Assembly: GCF_002197845.1 (NCBI RefSeq)
Contig: NZ_NIDE01000001.1
Location: 372,001 to 436,000, forward strand
DNA: 64,000 nt
DNA from: Fimbriiglobus ruber
GTDB taxonomy: Bacteria > Planctomycetota > Planctomycetia > Gemmatales > Gemmataceae
Reading direction: 5' to 3'
The notes below the pieces were generated by a model. The model was given only the letters and a program-made list of their open reading frames with translations, did not search any database and was not told the origin of the DNA. Shown here piece by piece: positions 6,801-30,636 of this stretch (positions are counted from its first letter, which is position 1; the number at the start of each line of letters is the position of its first letter). The translations under genes and the position numbers were made by a program.

Positions 6801-7469
6801 ATGATCTTCAATCAAATTAACCAGAACGGGGGCGACGTGATTAATTCCGTCCGCCCGGACATCAGGACGCCCACTTTCGAGCTTCACGTCCTGACTTGTC
6901 CGGGCCGAGAGGCCGTTCTTGAAGAAACCCTAGCCAGCATCGCCCGGAGCGACTGGCACGCCGTCCCAACCGTCCACCGGGACGCCCACAACCTGCCCGA
7001 CCGCCGCGCCAGCATGACAAAAGCGGCTCGCGACCTGTTGACGACCGCGGCCCGGGGCGACAGCGATTACGTCTTGTTCTTCGAGGACGATGTCATCGTG
7101 AATAGGTTCCTACGCCACAACTTGACCAAATGGAACCCGATCCGATGGGATTTCTTGCTCCTCGGCTCTCTTTACCAAGGCGGCGGGGAAGACAGGCCCG
7201 ATTGCGGGTTCACGCTCTACCCGGCTGAACTCCTCGGCGGAAGTCAGGCGATAATCATCGCCCGGAGGTTCCTCCCGACCGTTTTGGAGCTTTGGAACAC
7301 TCACGGCGACGTAATGCAGGATTTGCGAATGTACCGAACCCTTGAGGGGATTTTCCCGCAGGTAATGGTTCATGAGCCGCACTTGGTTCAGCATCGCCCC
7401 GTCGCGTCGACATGGGACGGTAGGCCGCACCAGTCGACCAGCTTTAACGAGGATTGGAGAGCAGAATGA
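6801..7469 (+). CDS. Phage glycosyltransferase, GT-A fold
   Basis: This 222-residue protein starts its domain with FELHVLTCPGREAVLEETLASI, the nucleotide-sugar-binding strand and helix of GT2/GT25-like enzymes. VLFFEDDVIV supplies the DxD-like metal motif, and the region around GGSQAIIIARRFL is typical acceptor-side sequence. It would transfer a sugar from a nucleotide donor, in the host cytoplasm. Substrates cannot be read from sequence: virion proteins, DNA or cell-surface glycans are all possible. The stop overlaps the next gene (ATGA). Two further glycosyltransferase genes occur at 26.8-29.4 kb of the same prophage. Confidence 0.75.
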   Translation: MIFNQINQNGGDVINSVRPDIRTPTFELHVLTCPGREAVLEETLASIARSDWHAVPTVHRDAHNLPDRRASMTKAARDLLTTAARGDSDYVLFFEDDVIVNRFLRHNLTKWNPIRWDFLLLGSLYQGGGEDRPDCGFTLYPAELLGGSQAIIIARRFLPTVLELWNTHGDVMQDLRMYRTLEGIFPQVMVHEPHLVQHRPVASTWDGRPHQSTSFNEDWRAE

Positions 7470-14273: not shown

Positions 14274-16298
14274 ATGACAACACCAGCATGGATAAAGGCA
14301 ACCGGAACGACAATCAACAAGTGGTTAATAGGACTCACCGGGAAGGCCGCGACGCTCGACGCGAGCGGCCTGTCGAGCGCCCAGACTTACGTCCTGCCCG
14401 CAACGGGCGGGACGTTCACACTCGACAACTTGGCGAACACGTTCACCACCTCGCCCCAGACGATCGACATCGCCAGCGCCTCGGCCAAAGGTCTTGTCGT
14501 CCAAGCGGCAAACGGCCAGACCGCCAATCTGACCGAGTGGCAAAACTACATCGGGACGGCGGTTGCCTCGGTGGACGCGAGCGGAAACGTTTTCGGGACC
14601 GGCTGGACGAACGAGCCCGACGTAATAGGCGGGCGACTGTCCGCGTCGAACGAACCCTATCCGAACGGCGACCAGATTGGCGTCTCGACGTTGTATTTCG
14701 TTCAGTACAAGGGCAACCAAGAGAGTCTGATTTACAGCGGCACGACGGCGAAAACCCTGTCCGCTTCGTCGTCAATTACGCTCAGTCTGACCGGCCTGAC
14801 CTCGGGCAAACTGTACGACGTTTTCGTCTACGACAACTCCGGGACCAAAACCCTTTACCTCGGCCCCGCGTGGACGAACAGCAGCACGCGTGCCACCGGG
14901 ATTTCAACGTTCGACGGTATCCCCTACCTGACCGGCGACTCGACCAAACGATACGTAGGGACGTTCCAAGCGACGGGAACGACGACCACCGAGGACAGTC
15001 TCGCGAACCGATACGTTTACGACCACAATTGCCCGGACTACAAGGCGACGACGAACGCAAACCGCGTCACGTTCAATGGCCTCGTTGACGCCGGTACGAG
15101 TCCTTTCGCCCAATACGCCGCGAGTGGGACGTACACCGGCGGGAACCTCTTTAACAACTCGAACACGTTCAGCGGAACGAACACGTTCAGCAACACGAAC
15201 AGCTTCACGGCAACGGCGACGTTTAGCCCCGCATCGACCACCACACAAGGAATAATCGTCAAGGGAGTGGCGAGTCAGACGGGCGACTTGCAGGAGTGGA
15301 AAAACTCGTCAAACGCAGTCCTTGCGTCGGTGAGTGCGGCAGGCGTGTTTACTGGCGTGTTCTCGGATATGCCTCTCTGGACTACTTCGGTAACGTATGC
15401 GGTCGGCGCCCAAGTCCGGGGATCGGATGGTAACTGGTATCGGTGCCAGACGAGCCAGAGCGGAAACGACCCGACGGCTGACGCCGGGGGAAATTGGTTA
15501 CCGTCGTACATCTTCAACGGGTTCACGCTCAACGTCGGGAGCGGACAAAGGTTCACGACGTTACAGGCGGCTCTCTCGTTTCTAGCCGCAGCGTTTGCCG
15601 TTGCGAACTCGACGTGTACCGTACAAATCGCAAACGGTACATATACTGAGAATGTCGGGATATACGGGCCACTAGGCGGTAACGTCACAATACAGGGCAA
15701 CGTTCTCAACACGTCGTCTGTTCAAATTCAGGTTGCGACCAGTACGGAAGGGCTTCACATCGCTCGTGACGGTCTGAGTGTCACTCTCCAATATTTGACG
15801 ATCACAAAGGTCACCGGATCGAGTCTTAACGACGGCGTTGTGATGGATACGTTTTCCGACTTGACGATAAGCAATTGTGCGGTCTCGAATCTGGCCGTAG
15901 GTGTTTACATCACTGCGGGTAGATGCGAAATGGTTAACGCCATCTCTATATCCGGCTGTAGTAATGGCGTTGTCGTGCAGGAAGGCGCACACGTTCTAAT
16001 CAACAGTAGTAGTGCCACGATCAGCAGCAACGGTATTGGAGTGAATGCCACGATCATTAACGGTTCCATCGGGATCATCAGCGCGGGCATCACGTCGAAC
16101 ACGACTTACGGCGTTGCCGCGGGGATCGGCGGGAAAGTGTCGTGTAATTCGGTCACGTTCACGAGCAACGCAACGGCTTGCTATGCGGTGTCGGGCGGGG
16201 ACGTTTCCCTATCCGGTTGCACGTTCACGACGAACACGACGAACTACTCACCAGCACTCAATACTTTCGGCAACAATGGCGGACTTGTTAGAGGATAA
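14274..16298 (+). CDS. Tail-spike-like beta-helix protein
   Basis: This 674-residue protein has an N-terminal attachment-like segment shared with the previous gene. Residues about 365-410 (WTTSVTYAVGAQVRGSDGNWYRCQTS) match the small aromatic carbohydrate-binding repeat of chitinase/CBM5-12 type. The C-terminal half is a right-handed parallel beta-helix: repeated short strands with Asn/Ser/Gly turns (LTISNCAVSNLAVGVYI, VSLSGCTFTTNTTN). Such proteins bind or cut host surface polysaccharide. No catalytic residues can be named. Its placement inside the head gene cluster is unusual. Confidence 0.75.
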   Translation: MTTPAWIKATGTTINKWLIGLTGKAATLDASGLSSAQTYVLPATGGTFTLDNLANTFTTSPQTIDIASASAKGLVVQAANGQTANLTEWQNYIGTAVASVDASGNVFGTGWTNEPDVIGGRLSASNEPYPNGDQIGVSTLYFVQYKGNQESLIYSGTTAKTLSASSSITLSLTGLTSGKLYDVFVYDNSGTKTLYLGPAWTNSSTRATGISTFDGIPYLTGDSTKRYVGTFQATGTTTTEDSLANRYVYDHNCPDYKATTNANRVTFNGLVDAGTSPFAQYAASGTYTGGNLFNNSNTFSGTNTFSNTNSFTATATFSPASTTTQGIIVKGVASQTGDLQEWKNSSNAVLASVSAAGVFTGVFSDMPLWTTSVTYAVGAQVRGSDGNWYRCQTSQSGNDPTADAGGNWLPSYIFNGFTLNVGSGQRFTTLQAALSFLAAAFAVANSTCTVQIANGTYTENVGIYGPLGGNVTIQGNVLNTSSVQIQVATSTEGLHIARDGLSVTLQYLTITKVTGSSLNDGVVMDTFSDLTISNCAVSNLAVGVYITAGRCEMVNAISISGCSNGVVVQEGAHVLINSSSATISSNGIGVNATIINGSIGIISAGITSNTTYGVAAGIGGKVSCNSVTFTSNATACYAVSGGDVSLSGCTFTTNTTNYSPALNTFGNNGGLVRG

Positions 16299-22684: not shown

Positions 22685-24610
22685 ATGGCCGGAGTCAGCG
22701 GAACAATTGCGAACGGGTTCATCAAGATCGCTTTGTCCGGCCTCGACACGGCTAAGAAGCAACTCGCCCAAGTCCAAGAGACCGCGGCCAAAGTCGGCGG
22801 CGCCCTGCAATCAGTCGGGGCCGCGTCCGCCAAAGGGTTCGCGGTCGGGACCGCGTCAATCACCGGCTTCCTCAAGGCCGCGGACCCGGTCCGGTTCTCC
22901 ATCTTTCAGGCTAAGTTAGAAATCCTAACGATGTACATCGGGCGGATGTTTATCCCCATTTTGGAAGACGCAATTAAAGTCGTCGACCGCATCACCGACT
23001 TTTTCAAATCCCTCAGCAAAGAACAGGAAGAGAGCGTTCTGAAGTGGACCAAAATTGCGTTGTCCGTCTTGGCAGTCGGGACGGCAATCGGCGCCCTTGT
23101 TGCCGTCGGTCAGAAGCTTCTCGGGTTCGTTAAGGCGTTGCAAATTGCCCTGACGATCCTCGAAACGTCAACGGGCGTGGGCATCGTTCTGGTACTCGCG
23201 GGGATCGCTGTTGCGGTCCTCGAATTGACCGGGGGAATGGACGCGCTCAAAGAGACGGTCGGGAACCTAATCAAGAGTTTCGGCGGGTTCGGTGATGGTC
23301 TGTCCCCCATCTCCGGGGCGCTGCAAAAACTCGGTGAGACGTTCAGCAAAATCTTCGCGAGGATCGGGGCAGTTGCGGCCCCGATCCTTAACAAAGTCGT
23401 CGCCCAAATCAGTAAGCTGGTGTCCTCGGCGGTCCCGTTAATCGAGCGGATCGGGAAGGTTTTTGAAGATGTCGTGTCTGAGATCGGCCCGATTGTCGAA
23501 AGTGCTGTCGCAACCGTCGGCCCCGTAATTGACGAGCTGGGGACGATCTTCACCAAGTTGGTAGGCGACCTGACGCCGATCATTACCGACATCGGGAAAC
23601 AGTGGGGCAAATTAGCGGCGGACATGCTCCCGGTCGTGGTCAGCCTCGGCAAACAGTTCTTGGAAGCGGGGCAGCAAATCGCGACGGCGTTCGTTCAGAT
23701 TCTTCCCGGACTGGCTCAACTGGCCGCAATGTTCTTGAAGATTTTCGCGGTCTATCAGCAAACTCTCGCGGTCGTGTTTGTGAACCTCGCGGCGTTGTTC
23801 ATCAAGGTTTGGGCGACGTACCAGACGACTTTGATGAAGCTTTTCGCGGTCCTGATGCGGGCCGTTGAACAGGTCTTGCCGTCCTTGATGCAAATCATTT
23901 CGGTCGTGGCGGACGTGTTCGCCAACGAGCTTATGCCAGTCATCCAAGAGGTGATTGGAGTGGTCGGCGAGTTGATGGAAACCTTTGGCGAGATCGCGGG
24001 GGAACTGATGAAATTCGGGGCCGAGGTCTTGGGGAGCCTGATTGTCAGCCTCGGCAAGTTGTTCGTCTCGTTAATTAAGACCTTCGGCCCGACCATGATT
24101 ACGATCATTAAAGGCACGTTGGAAGTCATCAAATTGATTGTCGATCAAATTAAGACGACGGTGAAATTGGTCAAGTTCCTCTCGGACACCCTCAAGAAAT
24201 TGAACCCGTTGGGCGGGAAGTCTTCCGAGGAACCGGAGAAGGACGAGACTGGCGGGGGCGGGGACTTTGATGAAACCGGCGGGGGTGGGGACTTCGGGGA
24301 GGAACCTGAGAAGGGGAGCTGGTTAACCCGCCACATCCATCACCACAAGGAAAAGGGCGAGAAGGACGAGAAAGAGAAAAAGGACAAGCCGAACCACAAC
24401 ATGACGCCGCTTCCCCAACTGCGGAAACCAGAGATTTTCGCTTTGGAAGCGGGCTTTACGCGCGCCCAACAGGGTGCCGTGATCGACCCCAAGCGGGAGG
24501 TCGAGAACCAGCGGTTTGAAATGATGCAAAAGATTGCCGAGGACCAGTACAAGGTTCAGCAAAAGATTGCCCAGAACACCGAAAAAGACGGCGGCGCGTG
24601 GGAAACGTAA
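22685..24610 (+). CDS. Tail tape measure protein
   Basis: This 641-residue protein begins MAGVSGTIANGFIKIALSGL after GGAGG. It has Ala-rich amphipathic helices (KKQLAQVQETAAKVGGALQ), a hydrophobic segment at residues about 119-185 (ALSVLAVGTAIGALVAVGQ), long helical repeats, and a charged C-terminal tail with GGGGDFDE repeats and HHHKEK. Tape measure proteins set tail length: 641 residues suggests a short siphovirus tail. Domain pattern and position both support the call. Confidence 0.88.
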   Translation: MAGVSGTIANGFIKIALSGLDTAKKQLAQVQETAAKVGGALQSVGAASAKGFAVGTASITGFLKAADPVRFSIFQAKLEILTMYIGRMFIPILEDAIKVVDRITDFFKSLSKEQEESVLKWTKIALSVLAVGTAIGALVAVGQKLLGFVKALQIALTILETSTGVGIVLVLAGIAVAVLELTGGMDALKETVGNLIKSFGGFGDGLSPISGALQKLGETFSKIFARIGAVAAPILNKVVAQISKLVSSAVPLIERIGKVFEDVVSEIGPIVESAVATVGPVIDELGTIFTKLVGDLTPIITDIGKQWGKLAADMLPVVVSLGKQFLEAGQQIATAFVQILPGLAQLAAMFLKIFAVYQQTLAVVFVNLAALFIKVWATYQTTLMKLFAVLMRAVEQVLPSLMQIISVVADVFANELMPVIQEVIGVVGELMETFGEIAGELMKFGAEVLGSLIVSLGKLFVSLIKTFGPTMITIIKGTLEVIKLIVDQIKTTVKLVKFLSDTLKKLNPLGGKSSEEPEKDETGGGGDFDETGGGGDFGEEPEKGSWLTRHIHHHKEKGEKDEKEKKDKPNHNMTPLPQLRKPEIFALEAGFTRAQQGAVIDPKREVENQRFEMMQKIAEDQYKVQQKIAQNTEKDGGAWET

Positions 24611-24619
24611 CGGAGGAAC

Positions 24620-25627
24620 ATGGCTCTTTATGAGTACAATTATGCGGTGACGGATACCCCATCTGACCAACCGTGGAACCCCAATGAGTACAAGTTACTT
24701 AATGACGGCAACGGGAAAGGCACGTTCAATAAGGACGGGTCGCAAGCCAACGTGATGTACTTGGTCGAGTATCAATACCTCGACCAATTTCTTGAAGTGG
24801 TCTTAGGCAAGACCGTTGTAGGAAGTGGCGGCCTTTTGCGGCGGTCCGCGTCCGCCCCGGACTTCGATAGTGAGAACGGCAGTCTGCCAGAACAACACCC
24901 GTTGTTTGATAACTTCTACGCCGTTAGTGCTGATGTGGAGCCTCGCGGCGCCCCGTTCAACAATGTCGACAACACGGCGCCACTTTGGCCAAAATGCGTT
25001 GTAAACGTGGTTTTTCGTCCCCCACTCTTTAACGTCATTCCCGACGACGAATACGACGACGACACGGAAATCAACCGATTCACGATCAAGACGACGGACG
25101 GGTCGAGCGACCTGATAAGCATTCCGGGAGTCTTTAAATTCTGTGCCAGCACGGGCGACTTTAAGCAACCATTGGACATCAGCCCTGCCAAGACGGTACA
25201 GAACGGGCACGTTTCATATACGTGGCTACAAGTCCCCGTAGCAATCAGAGGTGACGGATACCCGGACCTCGGGAAAGTGCCGAACTTCGACACGATTCAA
25301 GGTCTTTTGGGGAGCCTGAATCAATTCACGTTGGACGAGTACGCACCGGGGACTTTACTGTTTGCAACATGGTCGAGCAAATTGACTTTGCCACAGACGG
25401 CAACGTCTAACAGCTATTACTGGGATATAACTTATAACTTCAGCGTTCGTGATTATGGTGAAAGTCCCTACGCGGGAAGTAGTGGAATTCCTGCGGGCGA
25501 ACATATTGGCTGGAATTATGCGTGGTCGGGGTACACGGGGAGTTGGGATCTGTACAGCACCACGGGCGACCCCTCGGGCGGGACGATGTATAACTATGCG
25601 GATTTCGGGCCGTTGTTCCAAGTGTAA
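24620..25627 (+). CDS. Putative distal tail protein
   Basis: This 335-residue protein starts behind GGAGG. It is beta-rich with many aromatics (TSNSYYWDITYNFSVRDYG, GWNYAWSGYTGSWDLY), an acidic loop (DDEYDDDTEI) and no signal peptide. Position immediately after the tape measure is that of distal tail or baseplate hub proteins. I recognise no named domain. Confidence 0.55.
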   Translation: MALYEYNYAVTDTPSDQPWNPNEYKLLNDGNGKGTFNKDGSQANVMYLVEYQYLDQFLEVVLGKTVVGSGGLLRRSASAPDFDSENGSLPEQHPLFDNFYAVSADVEPRGAPFNNVDNTAPLWPKCVVNVVFRPPLFNVIPDDEYDDDTEINRFTIKTTDGSSDLISIPGVFKFCASTGDFKQPLDISPAKTVQNGHVSYTWLQVPVAIRGDGYPDLGKVPNFDTIQGLLGSLNQFTLDEYAPGTLLFATWSSKLTLPQTATSNSYYWDITYNFSVRDYGESPYAGSSGIPAGEHIGWNYAWSGYTGSWDLYSTTGDPSGGTMYNYADFGPLFQV

Positions 25628-25636
25628 TAGGAGAAG

Positions 25637-26353
25637 ATGCTACAGAAGATTTCTGTCAACAAGCCGGTTAACGCCCGCGACCTGAACAACATAATTGACG
25701 CCGTTAACACGGCGAACAATCTCGTTGTCGCGCCGCCGTTGGAACTGACTCGGGCCGGGGGACAGACACGACTGACCGTTTCGTCGGGCGGGTTCGTGGC
25801 CGCGGTCATCGAGCGGCACCCGGGAAACGACTGTGATTCTTCTAGTTCGTCGTCGGGGAAGCACGCCAAATATTTTTACAAACTGCAAGAGGTGACGGTC
25901 ACGCCTCTCGGGTTGTGGGAATTCACCGAGAACGGCAGGATTGTCTACGCGACGGAAACCAACGACAACAAAATTGCCCTCAACACTATTGTTAAAGTCG
26001 AGCAATACGACATCAACCCGGGGCAGGAATTGCCCTACGATTTGGGGATTTACCCCGGAGATTGGCGGTTTGAACACTGTTGCTTTCTCCCGCCCGACGA
26101 CTGTAGTTCGTCGTCATCGTCTAGTTCGTCGTCGTCCGAGTCCTCGGAGTCGTCCGAGAGCAGCGAATCGAGTGAGTCCTCGGAGTCGTCTAGTTCGTCG
26201 GGTTCGTCCGAGTCCTCGGGTTCATCGTCCTGTACCTGTTGCTGTTGCGAACTGACGGACCTAGACGTTCTGACCGATGTAGACGTGTCGTGCGTCGGCG
26301 GCTCAATCGTCGTTACCAAGACCTTCACCACCATAAGGACTTGTTTGGCCTGA
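25637..26353 (+). CDS. Serine-tract structural protein with Cys cluster
   Basis: This 238-residue protein starts after GGAG. The N-terminal part (MLQKISVNKPVNARDLNNII) looks like a virion attachment region. A short serine tract follows D-C-D at residues 68-73. The long tract at 157-198 is nearly all Ser and Glu, flanked by C156 and by a cysteine cluster starting at C199 (CTCCCCELTDLD). The tract uses all six serine codons, so it was not made by recent repeat slippage. Two glycosyltransferase genes lie just downstream, so the serines may be O-glycosylated; that is inference. Confidence 0.65.
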   Translation: MLQKISVNKPVNARDLNNIIDAVNTANNLVVAPPLELTRAGGQTRLTVSSGGFVAAVIERHPGNDCDSSSSSSGKHAKYFYKLQEVTVTPLGLWEFTENGRIVYATETNDNKIALNTIVKVEQYDINPGQELPYDLGIYPGDWRFEHCCFLPPDDCSSSSSSSSSSSESSESSESSESSESSESSSSSGSSESSGSSSCTCCCCELTDLDVLTDVDVSCVGGSIVVTKTFTTIRTCLA

Positions 26354-26754
26354 TGGGAACTTATACCACTACAACGAATATCGGCCCGTGTGAATGCTGC
26401 TCGTCCTCTTCATCGAGTAGCAAGCCCTCTATCTGTCCGTTCACGTCCATCACTGTCCCGACTCTGTATATCTCTTACTCTTGTACGGGTAGTTGCGGTT
26501 GTATGGGAGGGGATGCGTTAACGCCATTCTCGGGTTATAGTTGGATATACGTGCCTCTATCCGGACCGTGTGGTTGCCCTAACTATCTCGTTGAATTAAT
26601 TTGCGACGACGGCAACTGGGTTTACACGTGGAACTGCAACAGTGAGTTTGAGCAAGGGAACTGCACAATCGTTTCAATTTCCCCTTTCATGCTGACGTTC
26701 ACCATATCACAACCTAACTGCGGCGGGACGTGTACGGCAACGGTCACGAATTAA
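26353..26754 (+). CDS. Cysteine-rich protein with serine tract
   Basis: The ATG at 26353 overlaps the previous stop (TGATG) and gives 133 residues. It has GPCECCSSSSSSS at the N-terminus and further pairs such as CTGSCGCMGG, GPCGCPNY and CGGTCTATV, more than a dozen cysteines in all. The Cys-flanked serine run repeats the theme of the previous protein. It may be a disulfide- or metal-stabilised tip or adhesin protein. No known family recognised. Confidence 0.65.
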   Translation: MGTYTTTTNIGPCECCSSSSSSSKPSICPFTSITVPTLYISYSCTGSCGCMGGDALTPFSGYSWIYVPLSGPCGCPNYLVELICDDGNWVYTWNCNSEFEQGNCTIVSISPFMLTFTISQPNCGGTCTATVTN

Positions 26755-26766
26755 CTATCATATTTC

Positions 26767-27903
26767 ATGTATATTGAAGAAATTAAAAAAGAACTCACCG
26801 GGCGAATGCTCGACATATGGCAGGGGAAAACCGACCTCCCGCCCGAGAAAGCCGAGGAGTACCGAAACCTTTGGCGTCAACAGGTCCGCTACGGCCTCGA
26901 ACCTAGTTTGGTCGAGCCAAAGAAAGGCGTAGTCCCGGCGAAAGAGGTGATGAAACAGGGTGTTCCCCTCAGCAAACAAAAACCGCCGTACAAACTGCTT
27001 ATAAAGAACGGGAATAGCCCCGGAGACGTTCTGGTTTTAAGTGCCGCAATCGAGTCGCTTCACGTCCAATTTCCCGACAAATATTTAACCAGCGTCGGCA
27101 CTCCCTGTATGGAAATCTGGCGTCATAATCCTCGAATCACGCCCGGCCTCGGCGCCCACAACGCCGAGGTTATTCAAGCCGAGTACCCCTTAATTAACTG
27201 GTCGGACTCGTCCCCGCTGCACTTCATGGCGGCCTTCGTGAGCGACCTCGGCAAGAAAATAAACGAACCGCTTCGGCTTCAGGTCAACCGTCCTTTCCTT
27301 TACCTGTCCGACGACGAGAAGAAAATCCCGGATGTGCCTCGGCCCTACATGCTGGTGAACTCCGGGACGAAAACGGATTACACTTGTAAAGGCGCCGGTC
27401 GAAAGATCTATCAGGAAATTGTCGATCACTTCGCCGGGAAGATTAATTTCGTGCAGATTGGGGAGGCCCATCACTTGCACGGGCCGTTAGAACGAGTGGT
27501 AAACCGCATCGGCCAAACAACGGCCCGGCAGCTTTTCCAACTTGCGTTTCACAGTGTTGGTGGCGTCGGCCCGATCACTTTCCTTCAACACATCTACGCG
27601 GCCTTCCAAAAGCCTTACGTGGCGTACCTCGGCGGTCGGGAACCCCTTCACTGGGAACATTATCCAACCCAAACGACCCTCACGACCCTCGGGCAACTTC
27701 CCTGTTGTCGGACTAGCAGTTGTTGGAAAAGTCGTGTCGTTCCTCTCGGCGACGGGGACCAGAAGGACAAGTCGTTGTGCCTGCTCCCGGTCCTCTCGGG
27801 CGACGAAATGATTCCGTCGTGTATGGATTTGCTGGGGTCAAAAGCCGCAATCGAGGCAATCGAGAGGATGATATCGACCGGGGTTATTTGCTTAGGAACC
27901 TAA
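26767..27903 (+). CDS. GT9-like glycosyltransferase with N-terminal LTGR module
   Basis: This 378-residue protein has an N-terminal 45-residue module (MYIEEIKKELTGRMLDIW, then YRNLWRQ) shared with the small protein at 7645. From residue about 77 it follows the GT9 (ADP-heptose:LPS heptosyltransferase-like) pattern: LLIKNGNSPGDVLVLSAAIESL, a middle YMLVNSGTKTDYTCKGAG, and HSVGGVGPITFLQHIYAAF where the donor-side loop lies. A C-terminal part has CCRTSSCW. GT9 enzymes transfer heptose or similar sugars. It follows two serine-tract genes. Acceptor unknown. Confidence 0.7.
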   Translation: MYIEEIKKELTGRMLDIWQGKTDLPPEKAEEYRNLWRQQVRYGLEPSLVEPKKGVVPAKEVMKQGVPLSKQKPPYKLLIKNGNSPGDVLVLSAAIESLHVQFPDKYLTSVGTPCMEIWRHNPRITPGLGAHNAEVIQAEYPLINWSDSSPLHFMAAFVSDLGKKINEPLRLQVNRPFLYLSDDEKKIPDVPRPYMLVNSGTKTDYTCKGAGRKIYQEIVDHFAGKINFVQIGEAHHLHGPLERVVNRIGQTTARQLFQLAFHSVGGVGPITFLQHIYAAFQKPYVAYLGGREPLHWEHYPTQTTLTTLGQLPCCRTSSCWKSRVVPLGDGDQKDKSLCLLPVLSGDEMIPSCMDLLGSKAAIEAIERMISTGVICLGT

Positions 27904-27911
27904 ATAAAGAC

Positions 27912-29384
27912 ATGAGCGATGAAAAAAAAATCAGCATTAAGTTCGCGCATGGGTTCGGCGACTGCTCCCTTTTTGCGTGTGCGATCCCTTCTTGGATATC
28001 CCGCGGCTGGACGGTCGAGGTCGAGGCAAGTTCTGACAAAGCTTGCCTGTTTAAAGCGGCGGGCGCGACCATCGTTGCCAAGGCCAAAGAACATCACCCG
28101 TACCTGCATCCCGGCGACACGCCGCACGACCAAGACGACAGTTGGGCGGGGAATAAATTGGGCTGGAATCTTGGTACTGGCCCTATGCCAGTCGTCGGGA
28201 CGAAGCCCGAACTCTGGGAAGAAACGGTCGGGCGAAAATTGCGAGTCGAGGCACCTTCAGACCCGGCAGAACTCGACAAATTGATTGAACCCCTCGGCAA
28301 ATTTATTGCCGTCCACACGCGGGGGAACACGGGTCAGGGGGACAAAAACTTTAGGGCCGACGACGAGTTGAAGCTTTACCAAGCCCTTCTTAAAGAAACG
28401 GACTGCACGTTGCTTTTGCTGGATTGGGACCACCGAGTTAGCAAGGCCCGTCATTCCCGAATTCGGCACATGGGCGACCACTTCAAAAAATTGTCGATCC
28501 CTGATCTGGCCTACGTTTTGGACCGGGCCGCGCTGCTAATTGGCGTCGACAGTGGGCCGTTGCATTTTTCGCGGTTCACGAACGTCCCGACCCTCGGGGT
28601 TTGGTTTAATTTCCAGCCCGCCCGTTTCGCTTTGCCGAGGGCCGAGACTTTACACGTCGCTCCGTCCAATCATGGGGGATGGACGCATCGACGCCGTCAT
28701 AGCTGGAATATTGTTGACGGGGACACCCGCGACGGCGTGACCGTTGCCAAGTTTGCGGCCCGACTGGTGGCCGGGGAAAAGCCCACCGACATCGTAATTG
28801 AGCAGCTTTTCGACAAGGCGAACACGACCAGCGGGAACCAGTTTCGCGACCGCGACAGGACGTTTCGTGCGGCGTTCAGCGAAATAAAAAACATCCCGGC
28901 CCCGGTTGTGGTCGAGACGGGTTGTATCAGGGCGCAAGAGGATTGGTCCGCCGGGTACGTCAGTTACTTGTGCGGCCTCTGGTTAAAGAACCACGGGGGC
29001 GGGAATTTGACCTCGGTGGACATCACGCCGCAACACGTTCAGTTTGCAAAAAGCAAAGTGACCAGCTTCCCGGTCGAGGTCGTTTGTCAGGGGTCCGTCG
29101 AGTGGCTTGAGGCATACACCGGCCCGCCGATCGACTTGCTTTATTTGGACTCCCTCGACACGGACCAACCCGGTTACGCGGACCACTGTTTGGCCGAGGC
29201 GAAGGCCGCGGAACCGCACCTCGCGGACAACGCCGTGATTTTGATAGACGACACGTTCAGCACGGGGACCGCCGAGGGGTATTTCGGGAAGGGCGAAAAG
29301 GCCGTTCCGTACTTGGTCGGTCGAGGGTGGAAAATTATTTGCGAAGGCTACCAAGTCGTTCTGAAGAGGGACAATGCCGCTTGA
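27912..29384 (+). CDS. GT9-like glycosyltransferase fused to SAM methyltransferase
   Basis: The ATG at 27912 gives 490 residues. Residues 1-300 are GT9-like: ISIKFAHGFGDCSLFACAIP, FIAVHTRGNTGQGDKNF, and LIGVDSGPLHFSRFTNVPTLGVW, the last being the typical GT9 donor-binding motif. Residues about 310-490 form a class I methyltransferase: VVVETGCIR (SAM loop), LTSVDITPQHVQFA, DLLYLDSLDTD and NAVILIDDTF. The enzyme could add and then methylate a sugar. It follows the GT9 gene by 8 bp and overlaps the next gene by 11 bp. Confidence 0.75.
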   Translation: MSDEKKISIKFAHGFGDCSLFACAIPSWISRGWTVEVEASSDKACLFKAAGATIVAKAKEHHPYLHPGDTPHDQDDSWAGNKLGWNLGTGPMPVVGTKPELWEETVGRKLRVEAPSDPAELDKLIEPLGKFIAVHTRGNTGQGDKNFRADDELKLYQALLKETDCTLLLLDWDHRVSKARHSRIRHMGDHFKKLSIPDLAYVLDRAALLIGVDSGPLHFSRFTNVPTLGVWFNFQPARFALPRAETLHVAPSNHGGWTHRRRHSWNIVDGDTRDGVTVAKFAARLVAGEKPTDIVIEQLFDKANTTSGNQFRDRDRTFRAAFSEIKNIPAPVVVETGCIRAQEDWSAGYVSYLCGLWLKNHGGGNLTSVDITPQHVQFAKSKVTSFPVEVVCQGSVEWLEAYTGPPIDLLYLDSLDTDQPGYADHCLAEAKAAEPHLADNAVILIDDTFSTGTAEGYFGKGEKAVPYLVGRGWKIICEGYQVVLKRDNAA

Positions 29385-29634: not shown

Positions 29635-30618
29635 TTATTCCGCCGCGGCGGGTTTTTTCGCCTCACTCAGTCGTTTCCGGGCGATCCCGCAATACGTGGC
29701 GGAACGGTCAATTCCGACATAGTCCCGCCCTTCCAGCTGGCAGGCGAGCGGGATAGTACCGATCCCGGCGAACGGATCGACAACCAGTTTTCCTTTGAGC
29801 GTATACCGGCGGACCACTTCTCGGCAGTCGTTCAGCGCCTTGGGGCAGGGGTGGACGGAATGAAATTCGCCCGACTCGCCCCGATACCACGCCGAGGCGT
29901 TCATCCAGTCGTTCCACCCACCGAACCCGATAAATGATTTTCTCCCCGGCCTGACCCACCGGACAATCGGTTCCCACTGCCTGACGCCGCGGATGGTAAA
30001 GCAGGACGCGATTATTTGGGCCTTGGGAATCCAAGTCTGAAGAAAAGCCAAATGGTGGTACGCTTGCCACATCACGATCGACCCGCCCGGCTGAACTACC
30101 CGCGCCATCTCGTTCCAGAACGGCTCAAGCCACTTCCAATAATCCTTGGGGTTGTCCGGGTCGGTCCAGTTGTCAAAAGTCGTGCCCAACCCATACGGCG
30201 GGTCGGTGACGAAGAACGGGACCGAGTTGTCCGCCTGTTGCCCCAACCACTTAAGACTGTCCCCGCAAATTATGGCCGGGTCGAGGGGCGAGTCCGCGGC
30301 CTCGGCGGACAGCTCCGCGGCCCGTTCCGCCCGTTCGATCCGTCGGCCCGCTCTGATCCGCTTCAGAACGCCGTCGATGCTCAAATGACCAGAACTCTGG
30401 TCATTCTCGATATCGGCCTTGGCGATTTGGGTGTAGGCGGACGCCGTCTGTCGACTGATCCCGAGGCGGCTCACCCACGGGAGATACTTCCCGTGTCCGA
30501 GTTGGGCGCGGGCCTCGCTCAACAGGTTGCCGATCCGTCGAGCGGTCTCGACGGTCGGGCGGACGTTCAAATTGTTGTGCAACTGGAGAATTTCGATTTC
30601 GAGAGATGTCAGGTTCAT
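29635..30618 (-). CDS. DNA methyltransferase with DUF3102-like N-terminal domain
   Basis: The ATG at 30618 is preferred over a TTG 12 bases upstream, giving 327 residues. Residues 1-75 have the DUF3102-like pattern LLSEARAQLGHGKYLPWVSRLGISRQTASAYTQIAK, an HTH-containing domain found in phage and plasmid proteins. Residues 110-327 are an amino-methyltransferase: catalytic TDPPYGLGTT, then VVDPFAGIGTIPLACQ for SAM, in the beta-type order with DPPY first. It would make N4-methylcytosine or N6-methyladenine and may protect phage DNA. No restriction partner is adjacent. Confidence 0.85.
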   Translation of the reverse strand: MNLTSLEIEILQLHNNLNVRPTVETARRIGNLLSEARAQLGHGKYLPWVSRLGISRQTASAYTQIAKADIENDQSSGHLSIDGVLKRIRAGRRIERAERAAELSAEAADSPLDPAIICGDSLKWLGQQADNSVPFFVTDPPYGLGTTFDNWTDPDNPKDYWKWLEPFWNEMARVVQPGGSIVMWQAYHHLAFLQTWIPKAQIIASCFTIRGVRQWEPIVRWVRPGRKSFIGFGGWNDWMNASAWYRGESGEFHSVHPCPKALNDCREVVRRYTLKGKLVVDPFAGIGTIPLACQLEGRDYVGIDRSATYCGIARKRLSEAKKPAAAE

Positions 30619-30636
30619 GGGCGGACCCAAGGAAAA

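Follow-up and report, generated by a model that had tools for sequence, protein, structure and literature searches.

Serine-tract proteins encoded beside GT9-like glycosyltransferases in a Fimbriiglobus ruber prophage: a candidate phage protein-glycosylation cassette

A prophage fills the left part of a 64,000-nucleotide stretch of the 12.4-Mb Fimbriiglobus ruber genome (contig NZ_NIDE01000001.1, positions 372,001 to 436,000; the whole stretch is referred to below as the window). Its tail region encodes two serine-tract proteins (Ser protein 1 and Ser protein 2), a GT9-like glycosyltransferase, and a fusion of a GT9 domain with a methyltransferase (GT9-MT). Comparison of enzyme loci from genomes and viruses supports, at the level of sequence, the view that the pairing of serine tracts with GT9-like glycosyltransferases extends far outside this phage. 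These genes probably form a phage protein-glycosylation cassette acting on the tract of a co-encoded tail-region protein. Phage virion glycosylation as such is already known, and no description of the association between Ser tracts and GT9-like enzymes was found in the open-access literature, subscription papers being outside the scope of the search.

Serine tracts of the prophage proteins

As the first-pass annotation of this DNA had stated, serine tracts occur in two adjacent genes. Ser protein 1 contains an SSSSSS run and a long tract with 33 serines in 42 residues, and Ser protein 2 contains the run SSSSSSS (Table 1). All six serine codons are in use in the long tract (TCG16, TCC7, AGT4, TCA2, TCT2, and AGC2), which agrees with that annotation. 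Ser protein 1 consists of an N-terminal domain, a Ser arm, and a small C-terminal Cys-containing domain. In the four diverged Ser protein 1 homologues, the tract separates the N-terminal domain from a small C-terminal domain that contains a TVTK-type strand; the position of the tract is constant, and its length and spacer residues differ. In 58 random stretches (1.16 Mb in all) of the host genome and the planctomycete G439, none of the 1,036 open reading frames (ORFs) had at least 15 serines in 30 residues, which indicates that the tract is more than chance. A reading of the serine runs as neutral low-complexity expansions is therefore hard to sustain and is given very little credence. The variable length and interspersed residues of the homologues would suit such expansions. 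However, the six codons include AGY, which cannot arise by TCN slippage, and both the constant position and the empty random sequence argue against neutrality.

The 78 distinct tracts at the enzyme-family loci consist of 77% serine residues, and 58 of them draw on five or all six of the serine codons. The earlier description of the tracts as cysteine flanked holds for the long tract of Ser protein 1 and fails across the family, in which a cysteine lies within 6 residues of either tract end in only a third of all tracts; cysteine flanking was thus dropped as a general signature. Threonine depletion (5.4% of the non-Ser residues versus 15.7% expected) was also considered as a sign of serine specificity and is weak evidence, because arginine and cysteine are likewise depleted.

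Association of serine tracts with the GT9-like enzyme family

With a profile built from eight GT9-like proteins, 80 genome loci and 77 viral loci were retrieved. Single-sequence scans of viral contigs and phage records gave almost nothing, and alignment of conserved stretches was required. A tract ORF was defined by at least 15 serines in 30 amino acids, with ORFs chosen by a longest-first rule that was identical for cases and controls. The controls covered two planctomycete genomes, GT9 loci, and viral loci, that is, some of the sampled taxa.

In total, 30 Ser-tract ORFs were present in 27 of the 80 genome loci, where tracts of other residues showed no enrichment over controls. The viral loci contained 47 Ser-tract ORFs in 30 of 75 loci, or tracts in 32 of 77 when L257 and L262, in which the enzyme ORF was not picked, are included. 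Ser tracts were found in none of 58 random control loci (Fisher 4e-8), none of 20 ordinary-GT9 loci (385 kb around the genes; Fisher 8e-4), and none of 29 viral control loci with only related methyltransferase or glycosyltransferase domains (Fisher 3.5e-6). The distance to the enzyme gene is at most 500 bp for 13 of 29 tract ORFs and at most 2 kb for 23 of 29, and 24 tract positions fall within 5 kb versus 2 at 5 to 10 kb (p=2e-4). Half of the long-flank loci (18 of 36) have a tract. When the enzymes were clustered at 60% identity, a tract neighbour was present in 21 of 39 clusters, which shows that redundancy does not explain the association.

The tract-carrying partner proteins appear mutually unrelated. 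They include phage tail-region proteins, a 2268-aa RHS protein, a PKD protein, and, at the non-phage locus L056, a 657-aa carrier with SSSSSP repeats. Another carrier is a contractile tail sheath with a tract insertion near residue 90 (L144:7948-9315; PHROGs tail sheath 2.5e-14), encoded near a GT9 gene. The tract is taken as the putative acceptor mainly because it is what these carriers have in common. The O-glycosylation that had been suggested for the prophage tract gains strong comparative support from this gene association, with the glycan itself standing as a proposal.

Two other roles of the enzymes were weighed against these data, and both are considered improbable. In the first, the enzymes would alter the host surface (lipopolysaccharide or similar) against superinfection, and the tracts would be flexible linkers that lie nearby by chance. 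GT9 enzymes normally make the lipopolysaccharide core, and surface-modifying glycosyltransferases are frequent in temperate phages. However, no tracts were found around ordinary GT9 genes, tracts on carriers that seem unrelated to one another accompany the enzyme family both in viruses and at non-phage loci such as L056, and the prophage genes belong to the late tail operon rather than to the lysogenic genes. In the second, which we rate no higher, the glycosylated protein would be a different virion component (capsid, tail tube, or fibre), and the tracts would have a separate structural role. Glycosylation of capsid and tail proteins is familiar from mycobacteriophages. Putative glycosyltransferases and capsid glycosylation are also mentioned in PMC11256854. 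Against this stand the tract as the only feature common to the different neighbours of the GT9-like family and the short distance (at most 500 bp) of nearly half of the tract genes from the enzyme gene.

In viral contigs L270 to L273, L275, L276, L310, and L328, Ser-tract genes lie close to the GT9-like gene and in many cases flank it, and several of these contigs share the conserved stretch STAIVPCSWNETGY after the tract.

The GT9-like enzyme and the GT9-methyltransferase fusion

The first-pass annotation placed a GT9-like gene and then a GT9-methyltransferase gene in one tight run, and this layout was confirmed, with gaps of at most 12 bp. The window GT9-like enzyme matches Pfam Glyco_transf_9 with an E value of 0.032, below the curated cut-off. 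It is the only one of the eight profile members to fall under that cut-off, and all eight match PF01075 (best 1.8e-7). In the predicted model (pLDDT 67, with a helical N-terminus), the enzyme has the GT9 (GT-B) fold, with structure matches to Veillonella GT9 3tov (Z 19.4), WaaC (Z 17.9), and TibC (Z 16.4).

The family comprises 163 proteins in the fetched loci, many of them 313 to 345 aa long and with no more than a few residues ahead of the catalytic domain. Asp87, Lys208, Cys313, Cys314, Cys319, Cys338, and Cys352 are near-invariant in 130 distinct relatives. Each of the five cysteines is kept in at least 126 of the 130, with Cys319 lying inside a motif used for the family search. Gly86-Asp87 is present in all 121 relatives with letters at that place; Asp87 is the predicted catalytic Asp and would be equivalent to Asp110 of TibC. 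Members far outside Planctomycetota were observed in a Lokiarchaeota metagenome-assembled genome (L186), Pseudomonas (L129), and Caballeronia (L133), which may reflect horizontal spread or binning errors.

Within one genus, a recurring GT9-like cassette with other glycosyltransferases was seen in L057, L060, and L061 (G439, G054, and G350; e.g., L061:9722-17247). It also encodes an Fe-S scaffold protein of SufU/IscU type, joined at two of the three loci by a radical SAM protein. A link between these neighbours and the cysteine cluster of the enzyme is conceivable.

GT9-MT matches Pfam Methyltransf_24 (1.1e-8), Glyco_transf_9 (2.6e-5), and PHROG_24975 (9.8e-87). The best structural matches of its methyltransferase half are O-methyltransferases such as Rv0187 and MeT1. 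Since the methyltransferase domain filled the Foldseek list, the GT9 half is assigned from the profile matches. Of the sugar methylation suggested previously, the methyltransferase domain is thus real, and methylation of a sugar is proposed from its O-methyltransferase likeness. Methyltransferase genes of the GT9-MT type recur beside the GT9-like enzyme, and GT9-like and GT9(-MT) domains are joined in 19 single proteins. In G439, both enzymes flank a Ser-tract gene, and no phage genes were noticed at that locus. A third glycosyltransferase had been annotated at 6801; ORF 6801-7469 has no match in Pfam, PHROGs, or NCBIfam, and its likeness to the 247-aa L056 enzyme is marginal (E 0.009), which leaves that assignment unproven.

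Sugar donor

In 20 genome loci and 7 viral loci, HldE-type ADP-heptose synthase domains are encoded next to the enzyme. The host genome also contains the two HldE parts, as adjacent genes (C17:481675-483083). ADP-heptose is the likely donor because of these neighbours and the host genes. A variant that overlaps with this reading, in which the tracts are glycosylated with a non-heptose sugar from another nucleotide sugar, is unlikely, although it deserves more weight than the other alternatives. Some members of GT9 use other donors or have donors that are unknown, and no HldE gene was noticed in the window phage. The HldE-type domains in 27 loci, the host HldE, and a fold nearest to heptosyltransferases and an uncharacterised GT9 speak against this variant.

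Prophage setting and related viruses

The genes from Ser protein 1 to GT9-MT are part of the late tail operon, apart from the lysogenic genes. They are separated by a one-base overlap (TGATG), 12 bp, and 8 bp, and GT9-MT starts at its ATG rather than at an upstream TTG. The conserved 335-aa protein has no family match in Pfam or PHROGs and is probably a distal tail component, as judged from its position. Ser protein 1 may be a tail protein because its gene lies downstream of the tape-measure gene. The earlier term "virion tip protein" therefore fits with respect to the tail, and "tip" is a conjecture from gene order.

Table 1. Features of the prophage and of the proposed glycosylation cassette in the window
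Feature	Position	Strand	Basis
Terminase	8130		Pfam/PHROGs matches
Portal	9678		Pfam/PHROGs matches
Major capsid	16554		Pfam/PHROGs matches
Tail tape-measure protein (marker of tail operon)	22685..24610	+	PHROGs tail length tape measure 2.7e-17
Conserved 335-aa protein 3' of tape measure	24620..25627	+	47-49% identity to same-place L331/L332 proteins
Ser protein 1, 238 aa	25637..26353	+	Tract-bearing homologues in L331, L332, and C14 prophage, same tract position
Short serine tract, residues 68-73	25838..25855	+	Sequence
Long serine tract, residues 157-198, proposed glycan acceptor	26105..26230	+	Sequence, codon counts
Ser protein 2, Cys-rich, 133 aa (ATG at 26353)	26353..26754	+	Sequence; Cys-rich genes in same L331/L332 slot
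Serine run of Ser protein 2, residues 17-23	26401..26421	+	Sequence
GT9-like glycosyltransferase, C-terminal Cys cluster, proposed tract enzyme	26767..27903	+	GT9 fold (predicted structure)
Cysteine cluster of GT9-like enzyme, possible metal site	27703..27822	+	Conservation
GT9-MT, 490 aa (ATG at 27912)	27912..29384	+	Pfam, PHROGs, O-methyltransferase fold matches

The gene order recurs in other phages, as the first-pass annotation had proposed to search for: all or most of it is kept in three further viruses. The IMG/VR viruses L331 and L332 retain the order tape measure, distal protein, Ser protein 1, Cys-rich protein, GT9-like enzyme, and GT9-MT, with 34 to 49% identity to the window prophage gene by gene. 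In L255, GT9-like and glycosyltransferase/methyltransferase genes come after two neighbouring genes for Ser-tract proteins. In the whole host genome, Ser protein 1 has a single further match, which belongs to another, diverged prophage (contig C14). This prophage keeps most of the order: tape measure, a 300-aa protein, a Ser-tract protein, a Cys-rich protein, and GT9-MT (39% identical). Its Cys-rich homologue of Ser protein 2 is without the serine run. That annotation had also named serine-tract homologues lacking glycosyltransferases as evidence against its proposal; in a partial search, each of the four Ser protein 1 homologues found had both enzymes in the same phage.

The window and C14 prophages are otherwise diverged, yet part of the protein encoded at 14274-16298 of the window is very similar (E 4e-132) to a C14 protein (L008:12096-13082), which suggests a recent module exchange between the two prophages. 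The right end of the tail operon has an oppositely oriented gene for an N6/N4 DNA methylase (PF01555, 1.1e-25; 29635-30630, minus strand).

Proposed mechanism and significance

In the proposed mechanism, the GT9-like enzyme would transfer a sugar, most likely heptose from the host ADP-heptose pool, onto the tract serines, and Ser protein 2 would perhaps be a second acceptor. The GT9 domain of GT9-MT would extend or complete the glycan, and its methyltransferase domain would O-methylate the sugar. The virion tail would thereby gain a glycosylated, bristle-like arm, which may be of use in adsorption, protease protection, or masking.

Several points weigh against this mechanism. The glycosylation chemistry is proposed from genes and models alone, the virion location of Ser protein 1 is deduced from gene order, and ADP-heptose is named as donor from gene neighbours and fold only. 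About two-thirds of the GT9-like genome loci have no tract in the DNA covered, in which many contigs are short, and some family members may thus have other acceptors. The association was established by looking for tracts around enzyme genes, in that direction only. In the C14 prophage, the GT9-like gene (51% identical) is about 5 kb off, among head-tail genes, and does not adjoin the tract gene.

Serine tracts of low complexity are commonly regarded as nothing more than linkers. The enzyme family predicts where tracts occur in viruses and cells, which makes the tracts candidate glycan arms and the hypothesis directly testable in E. coli. We give about an even chance to a broader interpretation, a widespread undescribed poly-serine O-glycosylation system with a distinct Cys-cluster GT9 subfamily and ADP-heptose. 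It would be common to tailed phages, where it acts on virion tail proteins, and to Planctomycetota, Verrucomicrobiota, Bacteroidota, and others, where it acts on RHS, PKD, and other large proteins. If true, environmental phages would have a common route to the decoration of their virions, and ADP-heptose would have a use beyond lipopolysaccharide and autotransporters. The system would then also be a likely new tool for protein glycosylation, with poly-Ser as a simple acceptor.

Comparison with known glycosylation systems

Glycosylated mycobacteriophage virions resemble the proposed system in that phage-encoded glycosyltransferases are thought to modify virion proteins, whereas the enzyme families and acceptors differ; we know of no Ser-tract association in mycobacteriophage virion glycosylation. 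WaaC and WaaF (GT9) share with the window enzyme the fold, the predicted catalytic Asp, and weak Pfam/NCBIfam matches; the only NCBIfam matches of the GT9-like family are weak ones to lipopolysaccharide heptosyltransferase models. In contrast to WaaC and WaaF, the window enzyme has an extra Cys cluster and, as genomic partners, Ser-tract proteins, which ordinary GT9 loci lack.

The serine-rich-repeat (SRR) adhesin loci of Gram-positive bacteria, whose layout the first-pass annotation had recognized here, are only loosely similar, in that a Ser-rich acceptor is encoded next to its glycosyltransferases. The window system occurs in a phage and in planctomycete-type hosts, and no evidence of kinship was found. 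The glycosylation enzymes of SRR adhesins are not GT9, and the cassette is not an SRR adhesin system because its enzymes are of this heptosyltransferase type. No GtfA/GtfB-type core was found, the window enzymes matching GT9 models only, besides the methyltransferase domain. SecA2/SecY2 and cell-wall anchor genes were not noted among the proteins read, no aimed search for them having been made.

TibC O-heptosylates serine and not threonine, contains a four-Cys iron finger, and is encoded beside its acceptor gene (PMC4358343). The window system resembles TibC/AAH (BAHT) in the GT9/GT-B fold, the conserved C-terminal Cys cluster, and the enzyme gene beside a putative acceptor gene, and would also share the serine acceptors and the ADP-heptose donor. 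The five conserved cysteines are spaced similarly to Cys339, Cys342, Cys358, and Cys370 of TibC, the Cys-cluster region of the window enzyme being modelled at a pLDDT of about 30. The GT9-like family is not a member of TibC/AAH because a PDB sequence search with the family profile gave no TibC match and most relatives lack the N-terminal beta-barrel of TibC/AAH. It differs further in that the acceptors would be poly-Ser tracts in phage tail and RHS-type proteins rather than autotransporter repeats and in its second enzyme, GT9-MT. The cassette may still work like TibC/AAH or an SRR system, and the serine heptosylation of TibC/AAH is the better mechanistic analogue of the two.

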